A DNA stretch of 64,000 nt, from contig OZ025804.1 in the NCBI GenBank assembly GCA_964019425.1, positions 62,001 to 126,000 of the forward strand, given 5' to 3'. The notes below the pieces were generated by a model. It had not been told where the DNA came from. It ran no database searches and was given only the letters and a program-made list of their open reading frames with translations. This DNA comes from Flectonema sp. DT1601. Taxonomy: Eukaryota; Euglenozoa; Diplonemea; Diplonemida; Diplonemidae. Both the position numbers and the translations under genes were made by a program. Each line of letters opens with the position of its first letter. Position 1 is the first letter of the stretch. Shown in pieces: positions 27,873 to 64,000 of this stretch.

Positions 27873-27941
27873 TTCAGCTTCTGAAGAGCTGAAATACTTC
27901 AATTTAATACCAGAAATAATACAAAAAACTTATTCACTTGT

Positions 27942-28807: not shown

Positions 28808-28886
28808 TTCAGCTTCTGAAGAGCTGAAATACTTCAATTTACTTCAATTTAATACCAGAAATAATACAAAAAACTTATTCACTTGT

Positions 28887-39675: not shown

Positions 39676-40323
39676 TTACTTTACACAGTGCGCGACGGCC
39701 CTTGCCACGACTGCTGCAGCGTTTCTCGCTGCCTCGTCAACCTTCTTCTGGGCCTCTGCTTGCTTCTCTAAAACCTTTGCCCTGGCCTCAGCCATTTTCT
39801 CTTCAGAGAGTCTTTTGGCTGCAGCGATGAGTCTCGCTTTCTTTGCACGAAGTTCAGCTTCCTCATCATTATCTTTTGTTTTGTGCTTCTTCCCGCCAGC
39901 GCCACTGGTATCAGCCTTCCTCTTTGCTGCGTCTTTCTTCTTGGTTTCAGCCTTTTTCTCGGCTTCAGCCTTCTTCTTGGCTTCGGCCTTCTTCTTAGCA
40001 GCCTCCTTCGCCTTCTTGGCGTCCTTCTCCTCCTCCTCAGCGAGCTTCTTCGCCTTCTTTTTCTTGGCTGCTGCGTCCTTTTGCTTTTTCTCGGCTTTCT
40101 CCTCCTTTCTCTCCTTCTCCGCAGCAGCTTTCTCCTCTCTCTTTTCTTTCTCTTCCTCTTTGAACTCCTTCAAGGCAGAAGCAATCTGTTGTTTGGTAGT
40201 AGGCTTCTTCTCCCTCTTAACCTTCTCGGGGGCATCGATCAAGAAGGTTTCGGCGACATTCTTCTTGCGGAGAGGGACGATCACCTTCTTTGGGGAGGAC
40301 TTGGATCCCTTCTTGGCGGCCAT
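39676..40323 (-). CDS. Long divergent linker-histone-like protein C9
   Basis: 215 aa. The N-terminal half aligns with the array proteins: MAAKKGSKSSPKKVIVPLRK, then AETFLIDAPEKVKREKK and TTKQQIASALKEFKEEE. The tail is longer and more acidic. Instead of SPKK repeats it ends with a new region of about 80 residues (DTSGAGGKKHKTKDNDEEAELRAKK, then an Ala-rich helix) with a final Cys. Only the N-terminal SSPKK remains. The start follows CCCTTTCTTAG. Lying 10 kb upstream of the array, it could be a specialised variant of the same chromatin protein; this is inference. Confidence 0.7.
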   Translation of the reverse strand: MAAKKGSKSSPKKVIVPLRKKNVAETFLIDAPEKVKREKKPTTKQQIASALKEFKEEEKEKREEKAAAEKERKEEKAEKKQKDAAAKKKKAKKLAEEEEKDAKKAKEAAKKKAEAKKKAEAEKKAETKKKDAAKRKADTSGAGGKKHKTKDNDEEAELRAKKARLIAAAKRLSEEKMAEARAKVLEKQAEAQKKVDEAARNAAAVVARAVAHCVK

Positions 40324-41060
40324 GATTATTATTCGCTGCTAAGAAAGGGAACGGAATTATTAATGACATGTCAACTCACCGTCCGGTTGTTGCTTTCTCA
40401 TGACACTCCAAGATGGTCATCATGCGAAAACTCGAAAATGAGACCTTCTTGGGGCAATCATCGATGGCCGTGAACTCCTTTCCTCTCAAGAAGGTACATT
40501 TATATTTGCAGATCTTTTTTCTTTTCTAAACATTGTACCTCGGAGTGTTCATTTTATACCGACGCGATTCCATCTTACTTTATACTAAGAAGTTTAATTT
40601 TGTAAAAACTGGGACGAACATCAAAGCAGATGGGTGTTATCTTTTCCCTTACTCAAATCAAACTCATTTTCTTACCTTTTTTTGTTTTTTTTCATTTTTT
40701 TTGTTCTTTTTTTAAAGGGAAATAGGGAAGCTGAAATCACAAAAAGAACAAACCAAATACGATTATTTTTTTCCTTCTTTATCTCTTTTTTTTTTCTCCT
40801 CCCCTCACCTATTTTTCTTGTTTCCTTGACAGAGCCGAACCCTCCGAAAAAAATTAAACAAGGTGGCAGGGTTGTTCTTTTTTTTTTTTTTTTTTTTTTG
40901 GAAGTGTTATTACCATCCAAAAAAAAAAAAAGAATAAAAACGTTGAGAAGGAAGTAGTCTAAAGTTGATACCAGGCTAGATTACCAGTACTCATTAAAGC
41001 TACTTAGAAAAGCTCCGTGCGGTGTACTGGTTATTGAGGTATTGAAATTTTCTTTACATT

Positions 41061-45153: not shown

Positions 45154-45656
45154 CTCCCGATTTTTTTTTTTTTTTTTGGTTACACTCGTCTGTGCTACCA
45201 AACTCTTTGTTTTTGTTCTTTTCACTTCTATGTTTTGTCTTTCTTTAATACTTTCTTTTTGACTTAAGTCTGACAAATTGGAAAACACGGGAAACATAGG
45301 TAGGCTCCGCCTGAGGACGTAAGAAGAGCGGCAACGGAAAAAATAAATGGTCACGCGTCCTTGAAATTGGACACATGAAGCTAATTCGGTTACCATTCCT
45401 ACCATCGATAAGGAAAAACAAAGAATCGAGCATATAACTAGAGCGGTGGTCAAAGACCACTTGAACAGCCCGAAGGCCTGCCCTCAAGAGAAATTTATAA
45501 GGAGAATAGGAGAAGAAGGAGACAGGAGTGTTGGATGAGACACTGCGACAACACCGAAGGTGATGTGCAGTTACCCAACCAGGAGATGATTGATAATGAT
45601 GAAAATACTAAAATAATAACAAATTGATATTGGCGACTACATGTCACCTACTTTAC

Positions 45657-46225
45657 TTCCAAAGTCTAAGGTTAGATGTTTGTTCCATCCACCTTATGAT
45701 CAACGCGAGTGATGGAAGCCACGCCAAAGTGAAGAGAGCTTCAAGGTTAGGAATTTCGTTGGCAATAATAAGTTCTCGATCGCGATCCCACTTGCCGGTC
45801 AGTGTTGAGAAGCCCAGGATTTTGAACCTGGCCGAGTCGAGTTTGGGAGATTGACATCCCTGCAGCAGGTGAACCTGTGAGGACGGTTCGCCACAAAATG
45901 GGCAGTCGATCGTCTTGCGCCAGTTCTGAATTAGCGGGTGACATCCTGTCCGGAAGTTCGCTATCCGTATCTCGTCGGCCCAGGAGGGTATTTGACGGAA
46001 CGGCCTCTGATGAGGTGTTTGTAGCAGGTGTAACCACTCACGTTAAGCATCCTTCTTGATGCAGCGCTTAACATGTGATGATCGCGAGAAGTAAGTGCCT
46101 TTGACTAGCACAGGTCGGATGTTCTTGTTGTGCGCCGCTTCCTTTGCAAGCGCGTCAACTTCATCGTGAAACTCGATTCCAATGTGCGAGGGGATGAATT
46201 GTAAATGCACTTTCATCTCACACAT
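45657..46225 (-). pseudogene. LINE alpha copy B: RNase H end and C-terminal Cys/His region
   Basis: Continues the RNase H domain after a frameshift near 46.22 kb (VHLQFIPSHIGIEFHDEV) and, after another near 46.05 kb, the ANFRTGCHPLIQNW/CPFCG region to the LRLWK-like end. Compared with copy A a stretch near 45980 (SIP of the A frame) is deleted. It is non-functional as read. Confidence 0.75.
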
Positions 46226-47571
46226 GCGCAGGTATTCCAGTATCTTGAGGGACTCGGTATTCCTCTGTCTGCACCTTCCACCCAGCAGTTCATCCAGAAG
46301 GGATTTTGAGTCCGTGAATATCTCACAGATCTCATTGAAGGATCTTTGCTAAACACTGTTCTCAGATGTCTAGCCGCGTTCTTCAGAGCATGTTGTTCAG
46401 CCCTGTAGCTGCAGTCAGCTTGATAAAGCCTAGACGCGTAAGCAGATCGAAGGCCGCTACGTGACTTGGCAATATGAGCCGCACCGGCCGCGCCGGAAGC
46501 AGAGTAGGAGCCATCGCAGTTGATTACCATGTCGACAGGAGGTAACGTTCCAATGTACGACATGAATTTTTCTTTGTCCACCGCAGGGTTCGCGGACTTC
46601 GGAAATCCGCAGCCGTTGCTAATCCTAAGGTTTGTCGGAGATACCCAGGGTTCCATCGAGTCAGGCTGTACAAGGCACTGGCTTTCACGCTGGCTGTCAA
46701 TGCCAGGAAGGAGGCCAGCCCAGTAGCTTTGGGTTGAGGCGAGTCTGTTGGTACTAGGTATCCAAGTCATGGCTTTATACCTGTAGTACGCTATCTTGGT
46801 TTGCTTTTCAATCTGACGTTTAAAAGGAAGCATGTCCGCTTCCCACAGTAGAAGTTCTCTCGGTGTGCACCTGCTGCATCCAGTAACCAGCCTGGCAACC
46901 TTCCTCAGTTCGAAATCAATACTATCAACGCTGTTGCTTATCAACCAACCAAAGCTATCGAGCGCATAAGAGATTCTCGCAGTTACGTAAAGGTTCTTGA
47001 CCATATTTAGCGTTTTGTAGTCAAGATCATACGGTTGAAGGCATTGAAGCAGAGATATTCCCTTTTTCAGTTCTTCATGAATCTTAGCCACCTGTTTGTG
47101 GAAAGTGAGTCTGTCGTCGATGTGAACTCCGAGGTATTTCACTGAGTCCACGATTGGCAACAGAAATGCGGTTTTAAATCTGGCTTTCACCACCATCACG
47201 TTGTCTTCGAGAACAATATTCCGCAACATCACGTTGTCAAGTTCATCTTGCGTTTTGATCGGAGTTCCATCAACCTCGAGAATAGTTTCGCCGCTTTGAA
47301 GCATGGGTCTAGAAGAGTTTAAGTTGATACTCTTTTCAATGTCACTATAGTCCATTTTGATAACGTTTTCCACAACAGATCTGGAAAACAGTAATTCGCG
47401 ATTGCAGGTGTCGTTGAGAATCGTATCCTTCGTACGGACTTTCATCTTAAGAGCACAGGTCTTTGAGACCGACAGGGCCATGTCGTTGTCAGAACACCAT
47501 TGATCCACTTTATCAAGTATTATTTGGGCATTTGAAAGAGCTTCTTCCATGTTATGCCAGATACTACACAT
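46213..47571 (-). pseudogene. LINE alpha copy B: RT C-terminal part and RNase H
   Basis: About 452 codons. Starts in the RT thumb (NAQIILDKVDQWCSDNDMAL, typical after the YADD palm), passes through SVKYLGVHIDDRLTF (a LINE RT landmark), a connection region with a Cys motif (TGCSRCTPRE), and RNase H with CDGSYSASG and the catalytic Glu. Frame lost at both ends. It is nearly the same as copy A over the shared part (about 95% by eye). Confidence 0.85.
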
Positions 47572-48323
47572 GCTGTATCATCCGCATACAGAGCAGACGT
47601 CGTTGTTTCTTTCTCCAGTTCCAAAATCTTGCAGAGGTCATCAACGTAGATAAGATAGAGAAGAGGACCCAGGATCGATCCCTGGGGAACCCCCTTAGCC
47701 AGAGTACGGAATTCGCTAAAATAACCATTCGCTTCAACTCTAACCTTCCTGTTTGTAAGAAAGTCTGTGATCCATCTGATAATAACATTCGGAACACCCA
47801 TCTTTACCAATTTTAATAAAAGTATCTTATGGTTGATCCTGTCAAACGCAGCAGTAAAATCAAACGATAAGAACACCGATCTCTTTCTCTTCATGTGCAT
47901 CCTTACGACGGCATCTACCAAAACGGTGATCTGTTCGCAGGTATTTCTCCCCCTTCTGAATCCAGCCTGTAGTGGGCTGAGTGACGAATGTTTTGTGAGC
48001 CAGTGCATGAGTCGGTCATACACGAGCCTCTCCGCAAGTTTCCCAACAACCGATGTGAGCGTAATGGGTCTGAAACTCTTCAGTTCATTACGAGGTTTTC
48101 CAGCCTTGAACATAGGCTTGATTAAACCTTGTTTCCACTGGTACGGTACTTTTGAAGTCTTCCAAGAAGTGTTAATAATTCTCAGGAGGTATTCCACTGT
48201 TGCCGGAGTGAAGTTTTTGATCATCTCATTGTGAACTCCATCAGGTCCTGCAGCCTTGCGGGTCTTCAGGTTCTTAATCGCTGCTTCAATTTCAGCCATT
48301 GTGAAATCACAGCAAATATCCAT
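47520..48323 (-). pseudogene. LINE alpha copy B: reverse transcriptase core
   Basis: 267 codons. All RT blocks are visible: KAAGPDGVHNEMIK, SFRPITLTSVVGKLAERLV, SPLQAGFRRGRNTCEQI, FLSFDFTAAFDRINH (first Asp), LAKGVPQGSILGPLLYLIYVDDL, and SALYADDTACVVSG (catalytic YADD). The palm is intact but the frame ends soon after YADD and continues in the 47571 frame, so one indel separates them. The I/ingi assignment rests on the RT-RNase H order. Confidence 0.9.
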
Positions 48324-48477
48324 TTTATTATCACCTTTTTTTTTTTTGAGTGCACCACGACCCGTGAGTCTGCGATGCTGATTGCGCTGTTAGGCGCGGC
48401 CGTTCTTTTTCTTTCTTTCTTTCTTACTTTCTTTGTTTTGGGGGTTGGGGGTGGGAATCCCGTAGGCTTCGTATCTC

Positions 48478-48560
48478 CTTTCTTTGTTTTGATAACTTAA
48501 AACTAATACTACATTATTAATTGTCCACTTGGACGACTTCAGATGTGTTGCAATAATGCC
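48478..48560 (-). repeat. 3'-UTR segment of LINE beta shared with 42928-43003
   Basis: About 88% match by eye over 76 nt. It identifies the fragment at 42.9 kb as a second, more truncated LINE beta insertion. Confidence 0.8.
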
Positions 48561-48599
48561 TTCAATGTTGATATTCGAAATGTCGATGTTTTAATAATA

Positions 48600-49597
48600 C
48601 TACCGTCCTAATAGTTGTGCCAGTCTGTCTAAGGTTGTGACAAAACCAGTCATCTGCTGTTGATTAGTAGGTAAGTAGCAGTCCTCCAGTTGGCATGCTT
48701 CCTCTCCCTTGTCATTCATCATGTGACTGATGTATTTTTCCCTCAAGGTTTCTATACACCAATGTTCGCATATAAATAATACATGATGTGCTGTCGCCTT
48801 TCCAAGTTTACAGAAAAAGCACAGCTCGTTCAGTCCTTTGATTATCAGAGATCTGCAATGTCCCACTCTAAAGCGTGACATCAGTACTTCCTCTGGTCGT
48901 GTTAGAGCTTCGATGTACGGAGGGTGTCTTACCTCTCCCGGTCCGATCCAGTTCTCCCTTTTTCTCCGCTTGTGAAACGTCATCAATGTTCCCATGTCAA
49001 GTTGAGTGGGCAGTTGTTTAATAATAACATCTTCGTGAGGTGGATCTTCCTTCAGGCCTGCAGCGAATTTCGCCAGTTGGTCCGCTACTTCGTTGTACCG
49101 CACGTTTCTGTGTGCCGGTACATACTGCATGTTGACTTGGATTCCCTTCTTCTCCAATTTCATTGCCAACTTCCAGATCCTCTTGTTCATTGGGGACCTT
49201 TGTTTATATGGCCCTTGTTCCAATGCCTGCATGACTGACATCGAATCAGTCAGCAGGTGCGTCGTTGCTGTTAGAGATTCATGTTCATCCTCCGCCACCT
49301 GAACTAAATTTTCCAACGCCATTTTCACTGCAATCTGCTCGGTCCTATACGAGGAACCCGCTACTGGTATTTTATATCCAAGTAGACGCATCTTGCTTTC
49401 TTTTACTATGACCACAGCGGCAGCCGAGTCTGTCATGTAAGTCTCGGATTTGTGTCTTATCGACCCGTCAGTGTAGACTTTCATCTCGTGAGTTGGTAGT
49501 TCAGTTTCTCGCTGTTCAGCCTCTTCCTTGTTACTTGAATATGTGAATCTCATCGCATTAGTACTTTTCCATGGAGGGAGAGTGTAGTGAAGAAAAG

Positions 49598-49599
<2 letters not shown>
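48600..49599 (-). pseudogene. LINE beta RNase H and Cys/His C-terminal domain
   Basis: About 333 codons; the methionine at 49661 lies upstream of the truncation point and is not native. RNase H: KVYTDGSIRHKSE (Asp), YRTEQIAVKMALE (Glu), LLTDSMSVMQAL (Asp), QYVPAHRNVRYNEVADQLA (His/Asp), so all four catalytic positions are kept. Then MSRFRVGHCRSL and CFFCKLGKATAHHVLFIC, the C-x2-C...H-x4-C motif common after RNase H in I-clade LINEs. RT and endonuclease are missing. Confidence 0.8.
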
Positions 49600-49628
<29 letters not shown>

Positions 49629-50250
49629 CGCCGAAGCGAAGATGCCGGGAAGAAACCACATGCTAGTACATTTCTTTTACTTTTCTTTGTCTGCTGGAAT
49701 TCTATCTGAGAAAACCGGTAGTCTTTAAAATTGTAAGCCAAGTACAAGTTGCCTCCTGACGGGTATATTGTGGGTAGTTAGAAAACGTTGCGCTCCAAAA
49801 TATAACAAGACTCTACTCCACCCGCATCAGGCACATCTCTTGTCTTAGCCCTAGCATGCTACGTTGGAACATTGTCACCAGCCCGGTGGACCAAGTTGTA
49901 ATTATTGCCCCTGGTTTACTCATCACTCTTCCGTGTGACGGCGGTTATTCCCTAATAACCTGTTGTATGCTTTACCTAAGTCTTTTACTTTTTTCTTCTT
50001 CGCACGCTGTCGGTTTCCACCTTCGATGCAGTCAATCTTGTTCCGCCTTGGTTGTTTTTAGAAGAGCTAAGCTAAGTGGCAAGGTTTCACTAACAGATCG
50101 ACTTTTTGTCAGCATCTCAGGCTTCTTTTTGCCGAGGACGTGCGGCTTTCTTTGAGGTCTCACAGTGACACTTTTAAAAGAAGTTATCTATTCCGGTGGG
50201 TATAAAAAAGGGGGGGGGGTGAGGAAGGGGGCGGGTGAGTACACCCACAG
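49600..50250 (-). other. Probable 3'UTR and poly(A) tail of an upstream retroelement
   Basis: The (A)29 run (49600-49628) follows GCATCTTCGCTTCGGCG on the minus strand. The region between it and the stop of the frame at 50254 has no coding potential. It could be the 3' end of an element including the 50254 frame. Confidence 0.45.
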
Positions 50251-50253
50251 ATC

Positions 50254-50772
50254 TCAGCGGTCATCTTTAAGTCTCTTTCCTGGGCTCAGGCTAGTCCTCC
50301 CTGAGTCCGCTGAACTGTATGGCGATATCTTCTTCTTTGTCTTCTCGTTCGAGGATGGGCACGACCTCGTCCTCCTGTGTCTTGGTGTACTGTCTGGGTG
50401 ATCCAAGGCTCTGGAGGCGGTCTCCACTCCGGCGGTCCAGCATCTTCGGCAGGTGGTTATCTGGCACTTCGTGCATCTGCTCCTGAACCATTTCCGTTGT
50501 AACAATCTATGGCAGAAGTCGCATTTGACCCTTGGTCCCTTTTGCAACGGCGGTGCATGGTCACATGTCGGTCGGGTATCTTCGGTATCGTTTGTGGAGA
50601 CATCGGAGCTACTTGTCCCCGTCCGGGGTGGGCTGCTCCTCGCTCTTCTGGTCTTCGGCGTCGGATCTTCTGTAGAGCTGTTATGGCTGTCGAGGTCTAG
50701 CGTTCTGGCCACAGGGGGTAAACTGTTTGATTTTGTACGTAAAATACAAATGTTTTGTATCATAAAAAACAT
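50254..50772 (-). CDS. Orphan Ser/Thr/Pro-rich protein with a zinc-ribbon-like motif
   Basis: 172 aa. A low-complexity, Ser/Thr/Pro/Asp-rich N-terminus leads to CDFCHRLLQRKWFRSRCTKC and TCRRCW, giving C-x2-C...C-x2-C...C-x2-C spacing like a treble-clef or FYVE-type finger. The tail is basic and Ser-rich. The first about 15 codons lie inside a dispersed repeat (50735-50985), so the natural start may be a later in-frame site; no other ATG is close. GC-rich codon use resembles the LINE at 55-63 kb rather than the AT-rich frame beside it. It may be a retroelement accessory ORF; function unknown. Confidence 0.5.
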   Translation of the reverse strand: MFFMIQNICILRTKSNSLPPVARTLDLDSHNSSTEDPTPKTRRARSSPPRTGTSSSDVSTNDTEDTRPTCDHAPPLQKGPRVKCDFCHRLLQRKWFRSRCTKCQITTCRRCWTAGVETASRALDHPDSTPRHRRTRSCPSSNEKTKKKISPYSSADSGRTSLSPGKRLKDDR

Positions 50773-50985
50773 AACGATAATTTAACATTAGTTCTGAGAT
50801 ACAGTGACTAGGTGTGATGCTTAACTTAGCCTTTTAAAGTAACTATTAGGTTTCGAGAGTAATCCATATACCTCTTACCTCTATTCTCTCATCATCAGTA
50901 TGGTGTAGAAGTAAGTCAATCATCTGTTGTGACTGAAGCATCTTAGTTAGCAAGACTAGGATGTAGTTACTTTGTTATAATGTTT
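50735..50985 (-). repeat. Dispersed repeat, copy 2
   Basis: Counterpart of 5970-6225. It lies between the stop of the large frame at 51077 and the start of the 50254 frame. Confidence 0.8.
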
Positions 50986-51076
50986 ATAAAAAAAAACATT
51001 CTTCTTGTTATTACTAGTTCGTAGCGCACTACTAGTGGAGCACTCTTCTACAATAAATGTAGAAAGTATAAGATGA

Positions 51077-54000
51077 TTAATTATCAAGATCTGATGCATA
51101 ATCTGATACATCTTCAAAATCATGTAAAACAGGAGTCGAAGGAGTATCTAAGATGTTCGTAACGTTCTCTTTATCTTCACTTTTAGGTGTGTTGATATCT
51201 TCTTGTTTGGCTCGTTTCTTACGTACATCTTTTCTTAGTAGCGGCTGCATAGGACTTTCAGAATTTAATCTCTTTGTATATTTCGACTTCTCCTTCTTTT
51301 TTGCTGAAGCGACTAGCATCTTATTAACCTCAACTTTGATCTTGCGTTTACTTTTAGATCCGTTCTTATTCTCTAACTTTTTTCTCTTGTCCTTGTCCAT
51401 GTATCCATTAAATTCGATTATTGGAATCGGACTTTCAGAATTTAATCTTTTGCGGGTATCTCTTTTTGGTGTAGTTAGTGTACTATCCTCTTTCTCAAGA
51501 ATTTGTGTTACTAGTTTTGCACCTCTTTTAATAGACCGCATGTTTAGTTTCTTCTTCTCCTTGATGACCATTGTGATCTTGTTGGAGCCATCACTGTTGT
51601 TAACTTCATACGTTGTATTATCATGATCCATGTAATATGGAAAGTCCTTTGAGGCTCTGAATATTGCGCATATGTGGACATGATCAATAATTGATTTTTT
51701 AGTCTTGAAGCAATATTTACATTTCCTCTTGATATGCGTTGTATCTTTGTAGGATGGTTCTGACGAGGATGTTGTAGTTGGCACGTCGGTCATTGAGTTC
51801 TCAACTATTGTATTAACTTCTGTTGCCTTTTCTAGTTCAACATGCGACGTTGTCTCATCTTTCTTACTTCCGGTTTCATCTTTAAGTTGGGGAAGTATCT
51901 TACTAGATTCTTCATTGATAGGTTCCGATGTTTTATCCTTAATCTGCGTATGTGATTGCGTAATGACTTTAATTCTAGGGATAGTTGACTCGTGAGATCC
52001 ATTATTGAAAGCTTTCTTTTTGGATTGCTTCATAGCATGTTTATGAGACAGTATATTGGACTTTTTGTTACGTTTTGAACAAGGTTCAAGGGTATCACTT
52101 AAACTTTCCGGCATTGAAGTTACGGGGTTCATACTATCTTCTGTGTCTATGACAACAGTGTTATTTCGTGTTGCTGTTTTCGGAGTTGTAACTTTTAACG
52201 ATGGTGCAGTGTATGTTGTAACAATCTTGTTAGGTTGCCTATTCATTGCTAAATCATAAATAAGCTCCCGATTGTGTCCATTCCAACAAGTTAGTGGTTC
52301 TTGTGGGACAATCTTGTTGGTTGTCGGAGTTTTGATTTTGCCTCCCGACTTTTGTTTTACCGGTGTTTCAAACACATGTCGATGTTCAGGTGTTTCTAAA
52401 CACGGTGGTGATATAGCCTCAGTCGCAATGAGACTATTGTTTCTGACCTCCATATGAACATTAGTTTGTGGTGGTGAAGCAAGTTCGTTTGCGTTGATAC
52501 TGTTGTTGTTGATCACTATAGGCATATGAATACCAGTCTGCGGTGGTGAAATATACTCGAATGTCTCGAGACTGTTGTTGTTAATTACCGTATGAACACC
52601 CGTATGTGGTGGTGCAATAGGCTCAATTATGTTGAGATCATTGTTATTGATCAACATATGTACATCCGTTTGTGGTGGTGATATCTCGTTGTAGCTATTG
52701 TTATCGACATCGGTAAGGCAAGTTTTATGAATTGAGTCGTTACTCTTTTTCTTGGGACTTATAAGAGTATCCACATGTGGTGGTGGGATGATGTCAATAT
52801 CATATAGACTTCTGTTATTGACGGCAATCATCGTGTCAATATCAATATCCATCCGAGTTGGTGAAGTAACATCTGTTGGACTCTTAGTATCATGGATAGT
52901 TGGCGGTGAGATGGCAACAATGTCGTCCCCGTTGTGATAGACTTGTGGGGGTGAGATGGCAGCAATTGTATTTACCTTGTATATTCTCGGAGGTGATACC
53001 GCCATGATTTGACACCCAGATGAGCTGTGATATAGGTTACGAAAGTTTGGGATGGTTGGTATAATCTGCGGTGTTGCAATTATAAGTGTTGTATTTTCGT
53101 AATTAAATTGTGTATCCGTATTATAAAGTGGACCAGTTAGAATAGTGGTCATTGGTGATTCCATATGTACATCGGTATTTGGTGTAGCATATTCCATATG
53201 ACATAAGTTAGTATTCTGATTGGTGTTCAAGATATGATTGGGAAACTTAGTGAGCTTTGTGGTTCCACTTACAAAATCATTTGACTTTTGATCTTCAGAA
53301 GTTATGTAATCAGTGATGTCGAAGTGAGTATTAGATTTAGAAGCCTTGTTAGCAACAACTATTGCTTCCTTATCGTCCAAATCCACATCTTGCTGACCTA
53401 TTTTTGGATCTAGGTGTGTATCTATCTCTGGATCTTGAGTGACTTCCTTTGGATCTTGAGTGACTTCCTTTGGATCTTGAATGACTTCCTTTGGATCTTG
53501 AGTGACTTCCTTTGGATCTTGAATGACTTCCTTTGGATCTTGAGTGACTTCCTTTGGATCTTGAATGACTTCCTTTGGATCTTGAGTGACTTCCTTTGGA
53601 TCTTGAATGACTTTCTTTGGATCTTGAATGACTTCCTTTGGATCTTGAATGACTTTCTTTGGATCTTGAGTGACTTCCTTTGGATCTTGAATGACTTTCT
53701 TTGGATCTTGAATGACTTTCTTTGGTTCTTGAATGACTTCCTTATGAGTAGTATTTTCATTCGAAGATCCTAAATCCAATGGATCTGTGGCTTTAGCTGT
53801 TGTAGAGATATCATCCTCTTCAAATTTCTGTAACATCTCGTATAACAGTGCTGTGTCATCGTTATCATTCGTCTTTTGACTAAGAGTATCTTTCTCTTGT
53901 TTGTTTTCCATGTGGGGCTCCATTGTTGGATAGTCGAGGTTCGGAAATTGGAGTTTTTCCATAGGATTGTTTTTTGTAGGGCAGAATGCGAAGTGATAGT

Positions 54001-55078
54001 CAAATGTTTCCAAAGGATATATCCTGGCAATGTCATTCCACGTTTCATAACTTGGAGTGTGTTGAATGATATCATATCCTGTATACTCTGTATCTTTTCC
54101 GATAAATAAGATATAGTGAGTGTATGCTAATCTACGTGTAATTATAACGAATGGAAAGCGTTTTAGGTTTTGTTCTTTGAGTATATTGTTGACTTTATCT
54201 AAATCTTCTGCGCTGGTACAATGGTGTATTTCTAAGGACAGATGAATCTTGATTGTCTCATATATGACTAATTGGTGAAACCATCCATCAGGATTGAATT
54301 GAAACATTTCAACCAATCCTAACCACTTCATTTCTTGTGTTGCCAACTCATCTTGAATCTTAAAGACTTTAGATATCTGAATTCTCTCGATGTTCAGATA
54401 ATCAGCCATAAAATTAATGGTGGCCCAACCACACTCACCGCTGTTAAGGCCTTCAGCTGGTTTAGTGTGCATAGAAATAGGAAACCTTTTATCGATCGAA
54501 ATATCCCATTCAGGACCTCTATCATTCTTCATAACCGGTTTATCAGTCTGAGATTTTTCCGTTTCATCTTCTTGCGTTTCTGTGGTCTTATCTGTCATAA
54601 CTACATCAGTATCTGATGTGTTAGGAGTTGACTTCCCTTCTGTTGTAACTTCCGCCGATTTTCCAGGCGTGTCAACCTTGAGGAAGATTTTTTGAATATT
54701 ACTTTCCGTATATTTACTTGTAATTGGAAAATAATAACCTCCATTCGTACGACCAACAACCATGTGACATTCGTGATTCACATGTTTGTTAATTATTTCA
54801 CGGGTTGTCTTACCCTGGTCGTATGATAGAATACTGATGTTAACAGGTAGTATTTTGTCGAAGTCTTTGCAAAATTTGGTTACTTTAAATATCCCATTGC
54901 GATATTTAATATCCAAAGCATCAATCTGTGTCTCAGTGTTCTTGTTTATTGCGGTGGAACATATTAGACATTGATCTGGATTGTTAGTGATTGAGTGACT
55001 TGCAATCCGGAATGCAGTAACCATGGTGTTATTACATTTTTTGAGTTTTGCATACCCAACGTTCTTATCGAGTAACAT
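51077..55078 (-). CDS. Large AT-rich ORF with Josephin/papain-like region, repeats and C-terminal zinc finger
   Basis: 1,333 aa from the first ATG; the frame stays open upstream to about 55375 and that stretch also looks protein-like (FPQYKDFILSTYWDFPKQ). Residues about 205-360 contain GLNSGECGWATINFMADYL, then after about 115 residues AYTHYILFIGKD and GYDIIQHTP. This Cys-helix...His-strand...Asp/Asn order resembles Josephin or other papain-fold ubiquitin proteases; the assignment is tentative. Residues about 440-560 are an 8-residue repeat (KEVIQDPK/KEVTQDPK). Residues about 680-900 hold about ten SPPQTxVHM-like repeats. A CKYCFKTKKSIIDHVHIC finger (CCHC) lies near 1150 and the tail is Lys-rich. 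Composition is far more AT-rich than the adjoining LINE. Confidence 0.6.
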   Translation of the reverse strand: MLLDKNVGYAKLKKCNNTMVTAFRIASHSITNNPDQCLICSTAINKNTETQIDALDIKYRNGIFKVTKFCKDFDKILPVNISILSYDQGKTTREIINKHVNHECHMVVGRTNGGYYFPITSKYTESNIQKIFLKVDTPGKSAEVTTEGKSTPNTSDTDVVMTDKTTETQEDETEKSQTDKPVMKNDRGPEWDISIDKRFPISMHTKPAEGLNSGECGWATINFMADYLNIERIQISKVFKIQDELATQEMKWLGLVEMFQFNPDGWFHQLVIYETIKIHLSLEIHHCTSAEDLDKVNNILKEQNLKRFPFVIITRRLAYTHYILFIGKDTEYTGYDIIQHTPSYETWNDIARIYPLETFDYHFAFCPTKNNPMEKLQFPNLDYPTMEPHMENKQEKDTLSQKTNDNDDTALLYEMLQKFEEDDISTTAKATDPLDLGSSNENTTHKEVIQEPKKVIQDPKKVIQDPKEVTQDPKKVIQDPKEVIQDPKKVIQDPKEVTQDPKEVIQDPKEVTQDPKEVIQDPKEVTQDPKEVIQDPKEVTQDPKEVTQDPEIDTHLDPKIGQQDVDLDDKEAIVVANKASKSNTHFDITDYITSEDQKSNDFVSGTTKLTKFPNHILNTNQNTNLCHMEYATPNTDVHMESPMTTILTGPLYNTDTQFNYENTTLIIATPQIIPTIPNFRNLYHSSSGCQIMAVSPPRIYKVNTIAAISPPQVYHNGDDIVAISPPTIHDTKSPTDVTSPTRMDIDIDTMIAVNNRSLYDIDIIPPPHVDTLISPKKKSNDSIHKTCLTDVDNNSYNEISPPQTDVHMLINNNDLNIIEPIAPPHTGVHTVINNNSLETFEYISPPQTGIHMPIVINNNSINANELASPPQTNVHMEVRNNSLIATEAISPPCLETPEHRHVFETPVKQKSGGKIKTPTTNKIVPQEPLTCWNGHNRELIYDLAMNRQPNKIVTTYTAPSLKVTTPKTATRNNTVVIDTEDSMNPVTSMPESLSDTLEPCSKRNKKSNILSHKHAMKQSKKKAFNNGSHESTIPRIKVITQSHTQIKDKTSEPINEESSKILPQLKDETGSKKDETTSHVELEKATEVNTIVENSMTDVPTTTSSSEPSYKDTTHIKRKCKYCFKTKKSIIDHVHICAIFRASKDFPYYMDHDNTTYEVNNSDGSNKITMVIKEKKKLNMRSIKRGAKLVTQILEKEDSTLTTPKRDTRKRLNSESPIPIIEFNGYMDKDKRKKLENKNGSKSKRKIKVEVNKMLVASAKKKEKSKYTKRLNSESPMQPLLRKDVRKKRAKQEDINTPKSEDKENVTNILDTPSTPVLHDFEDVSDYASDLDN
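53428..53735. repeat. 24-bp coding minisatellite
   Basis: GGATCTTGA(A/G)TGACTTCCTTT-type units repeat about 13 times in alternating sub-types, giving a 48-bp higher-order period over part of the array. In the minus-strand protein this is the octapeptide KEVIQDPK/KEVTQDPK. Confidence 0.9.
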
Positions 55079-55289
55079 GTTATAAATGTCATCTCGTCCA
55101 TTCAGTTTGTAGTACTGTTGGATTGTTTTCTTCTCAGAGGTGACGGGTAGTTCCTTGTCATATCTCCAATTTGTCTTGAAAAAGAATTGCTGGAGGTTAT
55201 CTCTCTGTTTCGGAAAATCCCAGTATGTACTAAGAATGAAATCTTTGTATTGTGGGAAGAGGCTCTTCTTCGAGTACCCTCCACAGGGG

Positions 55290-57757
55290 GTGTGTGGGTC
55301 TCCTTGTCGTATGTTTGTAACTGCGATGATGGGCTGGACAAGTCGCGTTCCTCCTTGGTGAGGATGTCTACTGGTTCTTCAGAGGTGTCACACACTTCAT
55401 TGTCGAGGGCGTCCGCTAGTTCTCCGGAGGCATCCTGTTCTATTTCGGTAAGGATGTCTGCTGGTTGTTCGGCGGTATCGCGCACTTCTAGTTCTCCGGC
55501 GGCATCATGTTCTACTTCGGTAAGGATATCCGCTGGTTCTTCGGAGGCATCGCGAACTTCCCCGGTGAGGGTGTCTGTCCGTTCTCCAGGGGCATCATAA
55601 ACTTCTTCCTTGAGGGTGTTTACTGGATCTTCGGAGGCATCGTGTTCAACTCTCTCCGGCGGGTCTATGGTTGCAACTATCGTCCTTAGACCGGTTGACG
55701 GTAGGGGACTGCCTTCGGTGGGCAAATCTGTCGGTTTAGTGACTGGTGTGGCGCGGGCCGTGGCATCTTCCAACTCCTGACTTGCATTCGGCGGTGGGAT
55801 GTCGGTTTCCTTTGGCTCCGGCTTACTCTGGCCGACATTGGTTGCAACTGCGGTTTCTACAGGTGAGGCGGTCGGCGCTACACTTTCTATCTCCGTCGTG
55901 ACCGTCGGGTTCCGTTGGTTATCTTCTAGTGGGGGGCCTTCTGAAGTCACTGAGTCATCTCGGGCCACTTCAGGTGCGGACGTCTTCGGCTTCTTCACTG
56001 ATACAGGCTCGTCTTGCGAATCTGAACCAGGGGACCACTGCTTCTTGCTCCTCGGACTGGCCGATGGCGTTGGGCTTCCATCGGGGTCGGCTATGGCGGG
56101 CGGTGGATGGTCTGCCTCAGCCTTTGGTTTCTTGACTGAGGTAGACTCTCCCTGCGAATCGGAATCTGGGGATCTCGGTTTCTTGGTTAACCGTAATCCC
56201 AGCTCCCCTTCCAGGTCTGAGGTACGTCTCAACACGTTCATCAGCGAGCAGTAATCTCGAGAGGACACCTCTTCCGCCTTGAACTGCGCACAGTTGTTGG
56301 CGACGTTTGGTGTGTTGAGGAAGCTCCATGTGGCCGGCACAGCCCCCGCCAGTCCCGTCCGTGTTGTCGCACTCCACGTGTTCATATTTCCTCTGCAACT
56401 CCAGGTGGCATTTCTATCCTGTTGACTCATCTTCTGTATCCCCTTGAGGGCAGCATAGTAGGAGGCTAGCCCAAGGTCTGCAGTGTCGAGCGTCGCACCC
56501 CAGCTGGCCGTCAACTTGTGCAGTTGCGTGTCCAACAGGCAGGCGGCCGCCCCCGTCCTCCCAGTGTTCAAGTTCCTATGACTGGCGAAGAATAGGCACA
56601 TGCGAGGCGAGTCCTGTTGACGTCCCCCTGCCATGTGGTCCCACCAGTATAGAGAGGCTTCCAATCGCGAGTTGAAGGCCTTGTACCGGCTTCTGGTGAA
56701 CTCGTTTACCATCGAGCTCGCTTCGCGCCAGCAGTCGTACAGACCGGACTTTCGGCCCCTGACTACTGCGTACCATTTGCTGCCCTGCGGTGGAGCGACT
56801 TTGGTATCCCCTGATGGTGGGTTGTACCTCTCCACAAATCGCTGGGCCGACTCGCGGAGGACGAATCTTTGGTGGACGGCGCCTCTGTATTTGTGCACCT
56901 CCCTCTTCGTTTCCTCCCACGTGGTATAGACTCCCGGGGATCTGCCTTCGGCGACTCCGTAGAAGAAAGTTGGCTTCCTGTTGGAGGGTGCTAAAATCCG
57001 TCTTGGATCCTGGGTGGAGGAGGGTAGCTGCTCTCGTCTCAGGTACAGGGCGACGCAGGGCTTTATTTGTGTGACCTTCGACGTGTAGATTCCCTCGGCT
57101 GAATCGTCTTGTTTCAGCCATCCCCCCCTTCCATTTGTCGTATACGACACATAGTGCCCCGAGACCTCGTTAAACCTGATGTGTTGGATCATTCCAGTCA
57201 GGGTGTAGAGGCGGCTCGATGCGTCTATGAAAGATTCTGGTAGGATGACTTCATCGGGTTTGGTATCTCCAAAATGTCCCTCTTTGAACCCAAGGAACAG
57301 CGAACGGGCTGGCTCGTCTACCGATGTAACGATCTCCGCTGAGCACGATTTACAACTCGGGCAGGTGAAGTCTGTCGGGCTTGTCGTCGTTTCGTCAAGG
57401 GCAGAAGCTGTCTTTTGGTCGGGTTCCAGTCTGAGGATGGGCGTTCTATACCGTACCGTGTGTATGTCTTCGCAGACTTGACGCGTGCGGATTTGCGTTA
57501 CCGTGGACACGAAGTCGACTGGTGGAGCTCCCGCCTTATCGATTGCTTCGAGCAGCTCTGACAGTGCATGTTCGGCTTCCGATTGTCCCGGTCCGCAGCG
57601 TGGTTTCATCCATTCCCATATCTTCTTCGCTGCCAAAACAGACCCCGATCGCTTCAGCTCCCTCAGAGTGCATAAGACACAGTCTGCTGAGTGTTCCGGC
57701 AATTTGTTGCATTCCGGAAGAGGCATGCCCTTGCATAGGCACTGTGTTCATGTAGCA
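55290..57757 (-). pseudogene. LINE gamma: USP body, two hybrid-binding domains, RNase H-like region, acidic repeats
   Basis: The frame (stop at 55102) starts after the USP Cys box and is restored to it by removing one base near 57746. FTCPSCKSC is a CxxC finger; SGHYVSYTTNGRGGWLKQDD is the USP His box with the catalytic His and the DD pair. FFYGVAEGRSPGVYTTWEE and WYAVVRGRKSGLYDCWRE are two RNase H1-type hybrid-binding domains (Cauli_VI family). LFFASHRNLNTGRTGAAACL resembles the first strands of RNase H but lacks the leading Asp-Gly, so it is probably inactive. About 200 residues of EPADILTE-type acidic repeats end the element. Confidence 0.75.
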
Positions 57758-60451
57758 GGAATCCCCGAGATTCTGAATCCCCTCCAGGCCTACTCCAAAG
57801 GGTATGAAGGTCGGAGGATGTTCTATTGCTGGACTCTCGGGTTTCGAAGTGAGTGACGGCCCTCTCTGTGCGTTCAAGGGCGTACCCGGGACCGACTCCG
57901 GTTCCTGCCATCGTCCGGCAGAAGTTGTTATTGGGCCAGGAAGGTGCATGACGGCAGAGTCTGGAACAGACAGGGCGGCTTCGTTCGGCGTTATCTCTCC
58001 ACCGTGCGTAGCGATTGGATCAGTGGGCGATTCATGCGGCCTCAGCCCGGTCTCCGATATCTCTAAACCTCCGGCAGTGGATTTGGTAGGGCCAGGGGGC
58101 ATAGGGACAGCAGCGGCTGGGTCGATCAATATGAATACATTCCGTCCGCCTATTGGCAGTGAAGGATTGCCTGTTTCCATCGTGGGTTCAACCGGCGCTC
58201 CTTGCGGGCGAAAAGACGGTCTCGGCTCCGGCTCAGGTAACTCTAAACTTCCGGCAATGGATATGGTTGGGCCCGGAGGAGTAGGGACAGCGGTGACTGG
58301 AGCGGTCTGATCCGTCTCGGTTCGTTTAGCGGCTGGCGAGGAAGTTACGTCTACAGCTGATGCCGGATCAGCCGGCGCTTCTAGAGGTCTGTTGAGTGGC
58401 AGTCTCAGCCCGGGCTCCGATACCTCTAAACCTCCGACGATGGATGTGGTTGGGCCAGGAGGGGTCGGGGCAGCGGTGGCTGGAACGTGCAACGTGAACT
58501 CGTTCGGTCCAACGGCTGGCAAGGAGGCAGCTGGAGCGGACACTGGTGTGGCTGTCGGGTCGGGTCCTCCGTCGTCAGTCGTGTACGGTAACGGGGTCGG
58601 CACTGGTGTTGATTCGTACTCACACGGCTCTCCGTCTTTGTGTAGTGGAATTGCGGCACTCGTAGCGGGTTCTGCGGGCAATCTTTGCGGACTAGTCGAC
58701 GGACTCGGCACAGGCTCCGATATCCCTAAACCTCCGGCGATGGATATGGTTGGGCCAGGAGGGGTCGGGGCAGCGGTGGCTGGTTCAGTCGATGTTTTCT
58801 CGTTTCTCCCTCCAGCTGGTAAGGAAGCCGTCGGAGCGGACACTGGTGTGGCTGTCGGGTCGGATCCTCCGTCGTCAGTCGTGTACGGTAACGGGGTCGG
58901 CACTGGTGTTGATTCGTACTCACACGGCTCTCCGTCTTTGTGTAGTGGAATTGCGGCACTCGTAGCGGGTTCTGCGGGCAATCCTTGCGGACTAGTCGAC
59001 GGATTCGGCACAGGCTCCGATATCCCTAAACCTCCGGCGATGGATATGGTTGGGCCAGGAGGGGTCGGGGCAGCGGTGACTGGTTCAGTCGATGTTTTCT
59101 CGTTTCTCCCTCCAGCTGGTAAGGATGCCGTCGGAGCGGACACTGGTGTGGCTGTCGGGTCGGATCCTCCGTCGTCAGTCGTGGTCGGTAACGGGGCCTG
59201 CGCCGGCACTGGTTCGAGCTCTCTCGGCTCTCCGGCTTTGTGTAGTGGAGCTGTGAGGCTCATAGTGGGTTCGGCGGACACCCCTTGCGGACTAGTCGAA
59301 GGACTCAGCACAGGCTCCGATACCTCTAAACCTCCGGCGGTAGATATGATTGGGCCAGGAGGTGTCGGGGCAGCGGTAGTTGGTTCAATCGATGCGGTCT
59401 CGTTCCGTCCTTCGGTTGACAGGGTAGCGGCTGGAACGGACACCGATGTAGCTATCGGAACGGATCCTCCGTCGTCAGTCGTGGTCGGTTGCGGGGCCGG
59501 CACTGGTGTCGATTCGAACTCCCTCGGCTCTCCAGCTTTGTGTTGTGGAGTTACTAGTCTCGTTGCGGGTTCCTCTGGCTTCGTGGCCGGCCTGGTGACT
59601 GAATCCCCCTCGGGTTCCGCTGACCGGCCGATCCCTCCGGCATCCGGTGTGGTTGGGTCTGGAGTTGGATCCATAGGTTGTGGGGTCGATGCGGACAATG
59701 ACACGTCATCGGATGTGCTCGGTGCAGGCGGCGTGTGTGGCGTGTGCGGCTTACTTGCGGATAACGCTGCCTGGTGTATGAGCGATGCTCCTCTTGCCCT
59801 GAGGGCTTCTGCAGTGCAGACCACCACTTGGGTTGAGACCCTCCTGGCATACAGGCCTGCAACCTCCCGTAGGGGTACTGTTGTGGCAATGGCTCGCAGC
59901 TGCGACAGTCGGCTCAGGGTCCTCACAGCTTGTGGGCCTAAACCTCCATAGACTTCAAGTGCAATCGGGGAAAAGTTTAATCCGAACTTTGCACATAGGG
60001 CCGAGTATTTGCCTGACTTTGCGGCTTCTGCTTCACTGGCTGCTTGCCCCGGCTTGTTGTAGTTTCTAGAAGCCCCCGGGTTGACGATCGTCACGTCGAA
60101 GGCCCGCCCGACCCCCTCGTTCAACCCTTGCGGACAGTACCAATCTGCGGGTCGCTGCTTGTTGTATCCAACGAGGTATTTGGGTTCCCTCATCGTTGCC
60201 AAGCCCGCCGAACGACAGATGCCGATAAACTCTTCCCTTACTTTATCATGCCTGCGGTGGATATCCCCTCCGTCGATGCATACAGAGGCGTGGTACCCGA
60301 ATGCGTCCTGCGTCTTCTTGCAGGCACGGCAGGCCTCATCCTCTGAGAACAGGGCTGTCCCGAGACGTAATCCGCAGGCGATACGGAATATGTCGGAGCC
60401 TATGTAGCATTCCTCATCTGGACATTGTAACCACGTGCTTGCTTTCGGCAT
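57757..60451 (-). pseudogene. LINE gamma: restriction-like endonuclease, Pro-rich repeats and USP Cys box
   Basis: CRACKKTQDAFGYHASVC (C-x2-C-x7-H-x4-C) and RRHDKVREEF lead into RPADWYCP…RAFDVTIVNP, the PD-(D/E)xK restriction-like endonuclease found at the C-terminus of R2/NeSL/CRE-type LINEs. EYKSGKYSALCAKFG-like residues follow. Then about 550 residues of Pro/Thr/Ala-rich sequence with a 100-residue period (TPPGPTISIAGGL). The frame ends with GLEGIQNLGDSCYMNTV, an excellent USP Cys box (consensus GLxNLGNTCYMNS). The methionine at 60451 is only the first ATG after a frameshift from the RT frame. Confidence 0.8.
58140..59640. repeat. 300-bp coding tandem repeats in LINE gamma
   Basis: The block GTTGGGCCAGGAGGGGTCGG recurs at about 58446, 58746, 59046 and 59346, exactly 300 bp apart, with weaker units on both sides. 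Each unit encodes 100 Pro/Thr/Ala-rich residues. Adjacent units at 58.6-59.1 kb are nearly identical. Confidence 0.9.
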
Positions 60452-61067
60452 GGTGAGACAAGAGTCTCTTCTTGTCGGTTGGTGCCGCGTCTTCCAGCAA
60501 CTTATCTCGCGCGACCTGGTCTAGTCTGGCCGAGGTAAGTCGTTGTGGGTGGTATGTGCCCTCCAGCTTTAGGCTTGCCGGCAGCACCTTGTTCAGCGCC
60601 TCTTGGATCTGCGCACCTAGGCTACATTTGTAGTCCCGCCATAGGCTAACACAGGTATCCTTTACCAGTCCTAGCGAACCTAACAGGGCAGCATTCCTGT
60701 GCTTTGTACATGAACGGAGGCCGAGTCCGCCCATCCGCGTGGGGAGCTGTGCCTGGGTCCATCTCGAGCCTTCCAGGCCCTGTCCTAGCACCTCCGAGGC
60801 CGCCCATTTGACAACTTCGTCAACCTTCTGCAGCTGTTCTGTTATATCAAACGAGCAGCTCCGCATCAGGTGTGTGACCTCACAGAAGCCCGAACACTGT
60901 CTTAGAAGGACAAGGGCTGTCTGTCTGTCTTCCACGCCTGCGATCAGCTGGGCCTTGTCTTGCAGCCTACTGACCTTCTGTGCTACGAAGCTCTGAACGT
61001 GGGCGATCGATCCGAAAGGTGAGCCCAGGAAGTCTCCATTATAGAGCGGGCTCCCCATGCCTTCCAA
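60414..61067 (-). pseudogene. LINE gamma: RT thumb and connecting region
   Basis: 217 codons continuing from the RT frame after an indel near 61.06 kb. It has helical LINE-type sequence (VQSFVAQKVSRLQDKAQLI, ALVLLRQCSGFCEVTHLMR) and the PTRMGGLGLRSCTKHRNAALLGS landmark shared by this class of RTs. It then runs into the endonuclease frame at about 60.44 kb. Confidence 0.75.
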
Positions 61068-61917
61068 TCCCCAGCCAGACGGGGAGCTCGACTGGGTTCT
61101 CCTGTAAGACGTACGTCTGGCACTTGGCAGGTCTGAGGCTCAGTCCAATCTTTGCCGATTCCCTATCCAGGGTGCGTAGGGCTTGATCCACTTGCTCTAA
61201 TGATCCTGCGATCAATCCATCGTCCAGGTAGAAGCAGGCGAACTCCGGGCTGGTTTTCAACACCTCCACAAGTACTGGTTTCAAGGCCAATGAGAACAGC
61301 ATCGGTCCCAATGGGTCCCCTTGTTGTGCACCCTCAGCGGAGGACAGGGTGTGTTTGCCAAATAGTAACCACGACTGTCTACCGTAGCACCACCGCACCC
61401 AGTTCTCGAGCTGCGAGCCCGTCGTTGCTTCGATGAATGCTCCACGATGGACGCAGTTGAAAGCGTTCGAGAAGTCTATTTTGACGAAGACTTTCTCTGC
61501 CCCACAGTTTTTGGACCTAAACTCATGGAGTGCATGGATGGCCGCTTCTGTCCCCCCTGGTACTGCTACACCAAGTTGGCACACTTGCATAAGGTGGACT
61601 TTGGCTTCCCGTGCAAATTGACGGCAGAGGTGTTTCGCCGTCAGTCTCCTCCAGGTTTCACCCACCGCGATTGGACGATATTCCCCTGGTCTGCCTTCTT
61701 TCTCTATGGCGGTCAGGTTTGCTCCTGCCATGAGAGGGGCGATGGTGCTTGGGGCTCGGCCATTTGCCAGGAGCTTCACTACTTTTGTTAAAGAGGCCAG
61801 AAGTCCAGGGACCTCCCCCCGGTCTACCGCATCTTTGAGATGTTGTGGTGCGAGACCTGAGGGACCCACTCGAGCCCCTGTGAAAGGACCGTAGGCAAGA
61901 TAGTACCGTCTCCTCAT
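61039..61917 (-). pseudogene. LINE gamma: reverse transcriptase core
   Basis: RT blocks: TGARVGPSGLAPQHLKDAV, EYRPIAVGETWRRLTAKHL, QLGVAVPGGTEAAIHAL, VFVKIDFSNAFNCVHRGAF (first Asp), SSAEGAQQGDPLGPMLFSLAL, and CFYLDDGLIAG (catalytic DD). The GGTEAAIHA and EGAQQGDPLGP forms are typical of the RT group found with C-terminal restriction-like endonucleases in algae and protists. The 5' part continues in the 61658-62182 frame. Confidence 0.85.
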
Positions 61918-62182
61918 CTACCGTGGATTCGGTGCCGGTGCCTTCCTGGTACTCTCCTGACTTCGGCGGGTGCAGAGTCTTTAGTTTTTCCAGCACTTCA
62001 TCCGAGTGTTCTGCCGGAGGTGGTGAGCTCAAAGCTGAGATCGCCTGCGATATGCGGCCCTCTCTTACCAGTTCGGTTGCCCTCCGATTTCTTGATTTCT
62101 GGACGGCGCCACTTTTGTCTGGATCTGGGTACTCCCGGTCGCATTTGCCGCCCATAGTACCATGAAGTTGCCCTTTGACCAT
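61658..62182 (-). pseudogene. LINE gamma: segment upstream of the RT
   Basis: RRATELVREGRISQAISAL followed by DEVLEKLKTLHPP is the conserved pre-RT helix pair of this LINE group. The frame is linked to the OTU/finger frame by an indel near 62.1 kb and to the RT frame near 61.92 kb. Confidence 0.7.
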
Positions 62183-63103
62183 GCCGTCAGGTCCTCGATC
62201 GCGCCGTTCAAGGCTGATTCAGTCATCCGTCCTCCCTTTCTTCGTACTCTTCTCAGGGTACAGACTGGTAGCATTAGTAGCAGCCGCCAGGCTTGGTCGT
62301 TATTTAAGTCTGCTACCAGATCCGACGTCAGCTTCAGCGCTTTCGCGAAGTGGTGCAGTAGGGGTACTGGAATCACCTTCAGTAGGGGCCTCCTCCGAGT
62401 GGCGATGGTTTCGAGGTCCGGCAGGTCTTGTGTCGATAGAGCCATCTCCTTGAACCCCTTGTAGGCGTCATCTAATTCCTTGGATTCTAGCTTTTCTCTG
62501 CAGGATTGGTGCATGGGTTGTGTCATTCCAATTACCAATCGGCAGACTGGGCACTCCCGTAGGTTGAGTCTGGAGAGGTGACTGTGTGTCAGGGGGTTCC
62601 CACTGAAAGCGCGCTCTTGCGCGTGCTGGAGCAGCTCCGTCCAAGACGGGAACGCCGCCTTGTGTCTGTCGCATTCCGGTTGTGGACACGTAAGTGAGAC
62701 ATCCTTTGGGCTGGGCGGATGTGGTAGCAAGGGACCAGCTGTTTCCGCGGTATTCATTCTGCCTGTCTGCAGGATCAGGAGAGGCCTTGCTTTATTGAGG
62801 AGGGATGTTAGCTTTTCCGGTGCCACTACGACGGGGTCGTAATGGCTCCCCTGCAAGGTGAGTGCGATCACGTGGCCCGGGGTTGTCCCGTTCCTTCCTG
62901 ACACCACTAGTTCTTCCTTTCCAACGAACAGTAGGAAGCTGCACTTCAGATCGTCTGCCATGGCTTGTAAGGCCAGTGCGTCACCCCACGCCTTGTCTGT
63001 TCTGAGCGTATTGAGGTATGCTTCCATCTCTGTGTCTGATGAAAAGCATTGGTTGAACACTTCTTGGCTCTTCTCAATAAAGTCAGCCGTCCTCTGTCGT
63101 AGC
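62065..63103 (-). pseudogene. LINE gamma: partial OTU-like cysteine protease and Cys/His fingers
   Basis: The frame is open upstream of the annotated GTG-type start into the poly(A) junction at 63104. EMEAYLNTLRTDKAWGDALA, then ALQAMADDLKCSFLLFV and HVIALTLQGSHYDPVVV match the C-terminal half of OTU domains (W-GD helix, and final HYD with the catalytic His). The N-terminal catalytic Asp-x-x-Cys box would lie beyond the truncation. Next come CPQPECDRHK…FPSWTELLQHAQ (C2H2-like) and CPVCRLVIGMTQPMHQSC. The OTU call rests on pattern only. Confidence 0.6.

Positions 63104-64000
<897 letters not shown>

Follow-up and report, generated by a model that had tools for sequence, protein, structure and literature searches.

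We have analysed 64,000 nucleotides of the diplonemid Flectonema sp. DT1601 (contig OZ025804.1, positions 62,001 to 126,000, which is C25:62001-126000 of the host genome; hereafter the window) and find that a 12-kb block of mobile DNA within it consists of two elements, a broken copy of an R2-like long interspersed nuclear element (LINE), here called LINE-A, and a second retroelement that interrupts it. Intact relatives of LINE-A elsewhere in the genome carry domains of two deubiquitinase classes, OTU and USP (peptidase C19), in one giant frame with the reverse transcriptase (RT); this single-frame order recurs in five families, the catalytic boxes are kept, and the domains are under purifying selection between families A and B. 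We suggest that these LINEs may deubiquitinate their own protein or ribonucleoprotein and so escape the proteasome, a reading in which we place about as much belief as doubt. A first-pass annotation of the block, made from the letters alone, had described three ubiquitin-protease-like folds in it; OTU and USP stand, whereas the third, called Josephin, is without support and lies in the nested element.

OTU, RT and USP in single open frames

Since whole-genome profile and RT searches (89.5 Mb, 92 contigs) score the best candidates only, the totals given here are lower bounds. At least 70 RT matches were obtained, 43 of them of 700 bp or more; OTU lies in the same open frame in 34 of these 43, the USP profile UCH in 32 and both in 29 (42 matches were scored together, and the 43rd, C47:351222, without an OTU or UCH match nearby, was added by hand). 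The 29 frames are 2257-5423 residues long and, with families grouped by RT similarity in the same search, comprise three of family A, two of B, 16 of C, two of D and six of E. Co-occurrence in further copies, which the first-pass annotation had put forward as a check, is thus borne out for OTU and USP with RT, the third domain belonging to the other element. Two further repeated families have weak OTU matches with no UCH match near, one of them in frames of up to 2800 residues (the first at C6:360813, C9:1523048, C12:19463, C35:1037445 and C38:286440; the second at C34:30730, C7:1320337, C12:1482956 and others).

The LINE-A copy at C29:918721-928359 is one frame of 3213 residues without a stop. 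Its domain order was read by eye, with OTU, RT and USP placed by the genome searches: a hydrophobic leader, a C2H2 finger, OTU, zinc-finger-like motifs, RT and a knuckle with endonuclease-like motifs are followed by Pro/Thr repeats, USP, two RNase H1-type hybrid-binding domains, acidic repeats and a Cys-rich end. Both protease-like domains score above their cut-offs in this copy (OTU 54.2 bits; UCH 40.3 bits at C29:925381-926073, against 23.9). Single frames of the other families gave, in Pfam, OTU 1.8e-12, RVT_1 6.9e-17, UCH 2.7e-11 and Cauli_VI 2.2e-27 in C, OTU 1.1e-11 and UCH 2.8e-13 in B, OTU 7.1e-8 and UCH 3.1e-15 in E, and UCH 3.1e-17 in D, so that UCH exceeds its curated cut-off in families A-E and OTU does so in A, B, C and E. 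In the PDB, a stretch of family C finds the R2 retrotransposon protein with its RT part (4.5e-6) and ubiquitin carboxyl-terminal hydrolase 8 with its USP part (0.001). Profile searches, also proposed in the first-pass annotation, therefore return the OTU and USP folds and not Josephin.

When one copy of each of families A-E is aligned, all five keep the OTU Cys and His boxes (GNC/GDC...H) and, in the USP, the Cys box, the His box (GHY) and the Asp box after it. CxxC...HxxxC, RH, K/RPxD and FD/YD also align in all five; these C-terminal motifs after the RT we take to be a putative zinc knuckle and the putative catalytic motifs of a restriction-like endonuclease (RLE). Families D and E share a possible further USP-like stretch between the endonuclease motifs and the main USP, which we tentatively regard as a second USP: its sole profile support is UCH_1 in E (E 0.0071), UCH_1 in D pointing to the main USP. 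A tree of LINE and host USPs (64/83 support) leaves a single origin of the LINE USPs unsettled.

A poly(A) run precedes the frames of L045, L051 and L048 (families A, B and C), and each frame starts with a hydrophobic stretch resembling a signal peptide (maximal 15-residue Kyte-Doolittle value 1.96-2.05), which is odd for a nuclear element. The intact LINE-A copy stands between two blocks of one A/T-rich satellite with units of about 256 bp (C29:914633-918050 and 929014-931960).

A single frame of this size, whose domains are set apart by long linkers that diverge and are rich in repeats, is what one might also see if OTU and USP cleaved a giant polyprotein into zinc-finger/OTU, RT-endonuclease and hybrid-binding parts. 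We consider such processing distinctly unlikely, given that none of the four frames scanned with Pfam shows a ubiquitin-like insert, that OTU and USP families normally cleave at ubiquitin tails and not at free peptide bonds, and that R2 functions as a single protein.

Selection and a possible function

Between families A and B, the ratio of non-synonymous to synonymous divergence (dN/dS) is 0.02 in the RT, 0.04 in the endonuclease region, 0.12 in OTU, 0.17 in the hybrid-binding domains (64/113 residues), 0.32 in USP (66.2 synonymous changes over 187.0 sites and 80.8 non-synonymous changes over 584.0 sites), 0.36 in the N-terminus and 0.59 in the linker (195/648 residues). Judged by these ratios, OTU and USP evolve under purifying selection between the two families. 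The first 279 residues of LINE-A and LINE-B (L045, L051) have a dS of 0.04, far below the values of about 0.5-0.7 in later domains, and family A or B therefore looks recombinant.

One could also regard the domains as captured host passengers, or as ubiquitin-binding adaptors without catalysis; the dN/dS of USP, 0.32 as against 0.02-0.04 in the RT and endonuclease region, and the weakly matched second USP-like stretch of families D and E both lean that way. Catalytic boxes kept in five aligned family copies and a dN/dS of 0.12 in OTU speak against this view, which we hold to be improbable.

We favour self-protection. The predicted OTU and USP would strip ubiquitin from the element's own giant protein or ribonucleoprotein, the element protein would thereby be spared proteasomal destruction, and it might then last long enough to reach chromatin and insert. 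A USP in cis with the RT, in frames of up to 5423 residues, fits such a role, and we infer it because the deubiquitinase domains lie in cis, because two classes are retained together, and because USP and the linkers evolve faster than OTU, RT and the endonuclease region. Both domains would accordingly have to be active deubiquitinases, with the element polyprotein as putative substrate and protection as the presumed result. LINEs usually carry little beyond the needs of copying; that one of them retains, under selection, two deubiquitinase classes unrelated to each other suggests ubiquitin as a point at which retrotransposition is controlled.

Several observations weigh against this interpretation. 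OTU or UCH is missing from the frame in 14 of the 43 RT matches, the window copy included, and Pfam calls no USP in that frame-broken copy. Many copies are near-identical (equal RT scores), and the 29 frames are therefore not independent. The OTU of family D (4.3e-4, 21.2 bits) is under the cut-off of 23.3, with 27.7 bits in the genome search. The selection argument comes from one family pair, dS being saturated or nearly so in the others, which were not used. A frame that stays open is by itself no proof of function, and polyprotein processing or action on host chromatin fits the same anatomy.

Relation to known elements

LINE-A is likely an R2-like, RLE-type retrotransposon without long terminal repeats, of the kind found in the clades R2, CRE, NeSL, R4 and HERO. 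It shares with these elements a zinc-finger-like N-terminus, a central R2-like RT, probably also a C-terminal knuckle with RLE-like motifs, a single frame, 5' truncation and a 3' poly(A), and differs from them in its far longer frame, in OTU before the RT and in USP and two hybrid-binding domains after the endonuclease motifs.

The first-pass annotation named OTU and Ulp1-type proteases as known in some LINE lineages. Dualen/RandI LINEs are known for an OTU-like protease, which would be a likeness to the present LINEs; our literature search gave no paper with both terms. For Ulp1 the statement holds, NeSL and Utopia-1_TSP carrying that protease (PMC4640811; this and the articles PMC2836005, PMC6431247 and PMC10161547 are cited from excerpts of their text). 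Like LINE-A, itself probably an RLE LINE, these elements have at the N-terminus a cysteine protease that belongs with the ubiquitin/SUMO proteases, but theirs is Ulp1-like and here it is OTU, with USP added at the other end; Pfam reports no Ulp1/C48 family in LINE frames of families B-E. Dualen, which combines APE with RLE (PMC4640811), is like the present LINEs in its RLE, which is putative in the latter, and unlike them in its APE, since Pfam finds no endonuclease/exonuclease/phosphatase (APE) family in families B-E, the frames of B, D and E not being full length.

Outside LINEs, Ginger1 occurs with OTU or Ulp1, Helitrons with OTU, and a Trichomonas DNA transposase is fused to a C19 peptidase (PMC2836005); Helentrons with OTU and Burro long-terminal-repeat elements with ubiquitination-related domains are also described (PMC6431247). 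Ginger1, the Helitrons/Helentrons and the Trichomonas transposase are, like LINE-A, mobile elements with OTU or Ulp1 or, in one case, a USP-type (C19) domain; they differ in being DNA transposons, each credited in these excerpts with a single domain of this sort. The literature thus already has LINEs of the RLE type with Ulp1 and transposons of other kinds with OTU, while OTU and USP in one LINE were not found there: our literature search, outside whose coverage most subscription journals lie, gave no LINE with USP or with two deubiquitinase classes. In Diplonema papillatum, about 2500 gene models are annotated as retroelement proteins, including LINE-1, SLACS and R2 names, and the word ubiquitin is absent from the main text of that paper (PMC10161547).

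A protein database search, in a database that we take to be thin in eukaryotic transposons, gave eight matches (best 7981 candidates), among which only P0001 lists RT and UCH. P0001 matches 74% of the query at 100% identity, and so stems from this genome or one almost identical to it; P0002 has RT and OTU.

Fusion of deubiquitinase-like domains to a transposition enzyme in several transposon classes lends some weight to a further explanation, by which the domains act where the element inserts, removing ubiquitin from histones or from repair proteins and so easing target-primed reverse transcription; for OTU/Ulp1 in transposases, a part in repair has been proposed by Bao et al. (2010; PMC2836005). 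Considering that none of the four LINE frames scanned with Pfam shows a chromatin-reader domain, and that action at the insertion site does not by itself explain two classes, we rate this explanation as unlikely, though not negligibly so.

The LINE-A copy in the window

The following features of LINE-A were placed, all on the minus strand:

55281..63108, minus: 5' and middle part of LINE-A, 5'-truncated and frame-broken (98.1% over 7859 bp to the intact copy C29:918721-928359, BLASTN)
62806..63108, minus: OTU fragment, His (GSHYDPV) retained, catalytic Cys box lost (Pfam OTU 1.3e-6; 96% to the intact LINE-A OTU, tblastn)
62461..62745, minus: zinc-finger-like linker downstream of OTU (99% to LINE-A, tblastn; C2H2 pattern by eye)
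61066..61878, minus: RT, R2-like (RVT_1 9.1e-20; best PDB match of related family C, R2 retrotransposon protein, 4.5e-6)
60005..60409, minus: C-terminal zinc-knuckle-like (CxxC...HxxxC) and putative restriction-like endonuclease motifs (100%, tblastn; motifs common to five aligned family copies)
57842..59746, minus: Pro/Thr-rich linker with 300-bp repeats, diverging between families (tblastn map)
57037..57799, minus: USP (peptidase C19), split over two frames (two pieces of the intact USP, 98-100%, tblastn)
56635..56973, minus: two RNase H1 N-terminal hybrid-binding domains (Cauli_VI, Pfam 1.2e-26, two stretches)
56170..56634, minus: possible degenerate RNase H-like region (position and sight; no Pfam match)
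55288..56169, minus: acidic region with LINE-A repeats (repeat listing and tblastn map)
49600..50718, minus: 3' part of LINE-A (97.9% to C29 over 1119 bp, BLASTN)
50257-50715, minus: Cys-rich C-terminus within the 3' part, followed by stop, 3' untranslated region and poly(A) tail (49600-49628)

The partial OTU-like domain of the first-pass annotation is confirmed: the match on window:62065-63153:- (E 1.3e-6) covers profile positions 21-83 only, and the catalytic Cys box, present in intact copies, is missing because the copy is truncated at 63108, inside OTU. The USP with Cys and His boxes described there is upheld by the intact copy, but in the window it is broken, with the Cys box (57746-57799) in one frame and the remainder, to 57037, in another. 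Truncation at the 5' end (start 63108) together with a 3' poly(A) (49600-49628) is as expected of RLE-type LINEs. Pfam gave no match over the knuckle/endonuclease stretch 60005..60409, and Rfam no RNA gene at gathering score in the window or in seven loci (L045-L051).

Beyond the truncated end lies a (TTTC)n array of 796 bp (63172-63967), whose flank recurs at 48390-48500 beside another LINE. Further LINE remnants occupy 43753-49676, with RT at 47520-48389 and RNase H at 48600-49676; the RNase H remnant adjoins the poly(A) tail of LINE-A.

A second retroelement nested in LINE-A

Three features, again on the minus strand, define the insertion:

50720..55280, minus: nested retroelement, likely Penelope-like, 5'-truncated (97.8% to L047:4642-9169, C85, BLASTN)
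55281..55291, minus: target-site duplication, 5' copy (ACCCCCTGTGG; junction compared with the C29 copy)
50709..50719, minus: target-site duplication, 3' copy (junction reading)

Both junctions share 11 bases, ACCCCCTGTGG, the last 10 of which the C29 copy holds once; a second retroelement, an insert of 4.6 kb, has therefore entered the LINE. The GC content falls from 50.9% in 55001-56000 to 36.1% in 54001-55000 because the nested insertion begins there, and the doubt voiced in the first-pass annotation about a single element at this 55.3-kb drop was well placed. Adjacency on the same strand is what would join all three domains in one element. We give this practically no credence, considering the 10-11-bp duplication around the insert, the intact C29 copy that runs through the site without it, and the copies of the insert elsewhere, one of which holds an RT of its own in the same frame; the nested insertion refutes a single element with three folds.

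Copies in C85, C50, C14 and the window do not share a starting point, as is expected from 5' truncation, and all four copies read may therefore be 5'-truncated. We regard the nested element as likely Penelope-like, a label that we base on its RT motifs and on a weak GIY-YIG match in its relative P0010 (Pfam, E 0.019, below cut-off). Its frame matches RVT_1 (3.6e-7, Pfam), and its RT is 26-28% identical to P0009-P0012 (E 4e-67 to 8e-59), with no relative in the PDB; Pfam reports no GIY-YIG in its 2050-residue frame, in copies that may be 5'-truncated. The related RTs P0009-P0012 stand in contigs of 4-7 kb with OTU and DnaJ: Pfam finds both in P0009 and, for P0010, DnaJ together with an OTU match that stays below cut-off (0.057); for P0011 and P0012 both domains appear in the precomputed Pfam lists. 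In P0009 the OTU sits downstream of the RT; the nested element differs in having an unclassified Cys/His domain in the OTU slot, and Pfam reports no DnaJ there.

Seven of the eight distinct 3' junctions of the nested element (L034/L047, L036-L040, L043 and window 50709-50719) continue into at least five Cs, that of L038 being the exception; a chance match in L035 was left out of the count. A preference for C-tract targets is possible.

The Cys...His domain of the nested element

The third domain of the first-pass annotation is the following:

53954..54526, minus: conserved Cys...His domain, termed Josephin-like in that annotation (54-56% to three related loci)

Its Cys and His are invariant across the three related loci, and dN against two of them is 0.31-0.34 with saturated dS, so that the domain is constrained. 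The conserved domain is thus real, but the Josephin identity given to it gains no support from profile, PDB, pairwise or fold tests. No Josephin is among the Pfam matches of four domain members, and the profile PF02099 has one match in the genome (E 2.73, one candidate scored), which is not at a listed copy of the nested element. A profile search of the PDB, to E 10 and with Josephin chains included, gave no Josephin match, and in alignment of the domain with ataxin-3, 51 of 60 shuffles were equal or better. The hhalign comparison with a two-sequence profile (ataxin-3 and ataxin-3-like) gave a local 32-column match that is not significant (P 0.078), and a single-sequence AlphaFold model has a mean pLDDT (predicted local distance difference test) of 32.4. 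OTU identity is likewise unsupported: in comparisons with six OTU or OTU-like stretches, 3 to 56 of 60 shuffles reached the score of the true alignment. The order Cys...W..Q...His resembles Josephin or OTU by eye, which we offer as a lead only. In print, the main text of PMC6431247, consulted for Penelope-like elements, does not mention josephin, nor does that of a review of papain-like proteinases (PMC10318531) contain 'transpos'.

Taking the two elements together, a ubiquitin arms race is conceivable, if rather less than probable, in which the R2-like LINE stacks two to three deubiquitinases and the unrelated Penelope-like lineage has its own cysteine-protease module where its relatives carry OTU. 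If so, ubiquitin tagging would be a main host defence against retrotransposition in this diplonemid. Why many transposon classes acquire ubiquitin/SUMO proteases is a question raised by Bao et al. (2010; PMC2836005), and the natural series found here makes it testable: OTU with USP, OTU with possibly two USPs, and OTU or a different domain in a lineage that is likely Penelope-like.

Other features of the window

On the minus strand at 3131-4396 lies a gene that we read as ATP sulfurylase (80% to the Diplonema papillatum enzyme, 93% to a EukProt protein), which makes a diplonemid host likely; a search with ribosomal proteins ranked Euglena first. Near-identical ATP sulfurylase genes (3131-4396 and 10487-11752) alternate, by eye, with leucine-rich-repeat-like genes (7814-9817 and 12240-13715), and regularly spaced repeats extend over small Lys/Ala-rich genes at 23095-29020 and 39679-40338, also by eye.

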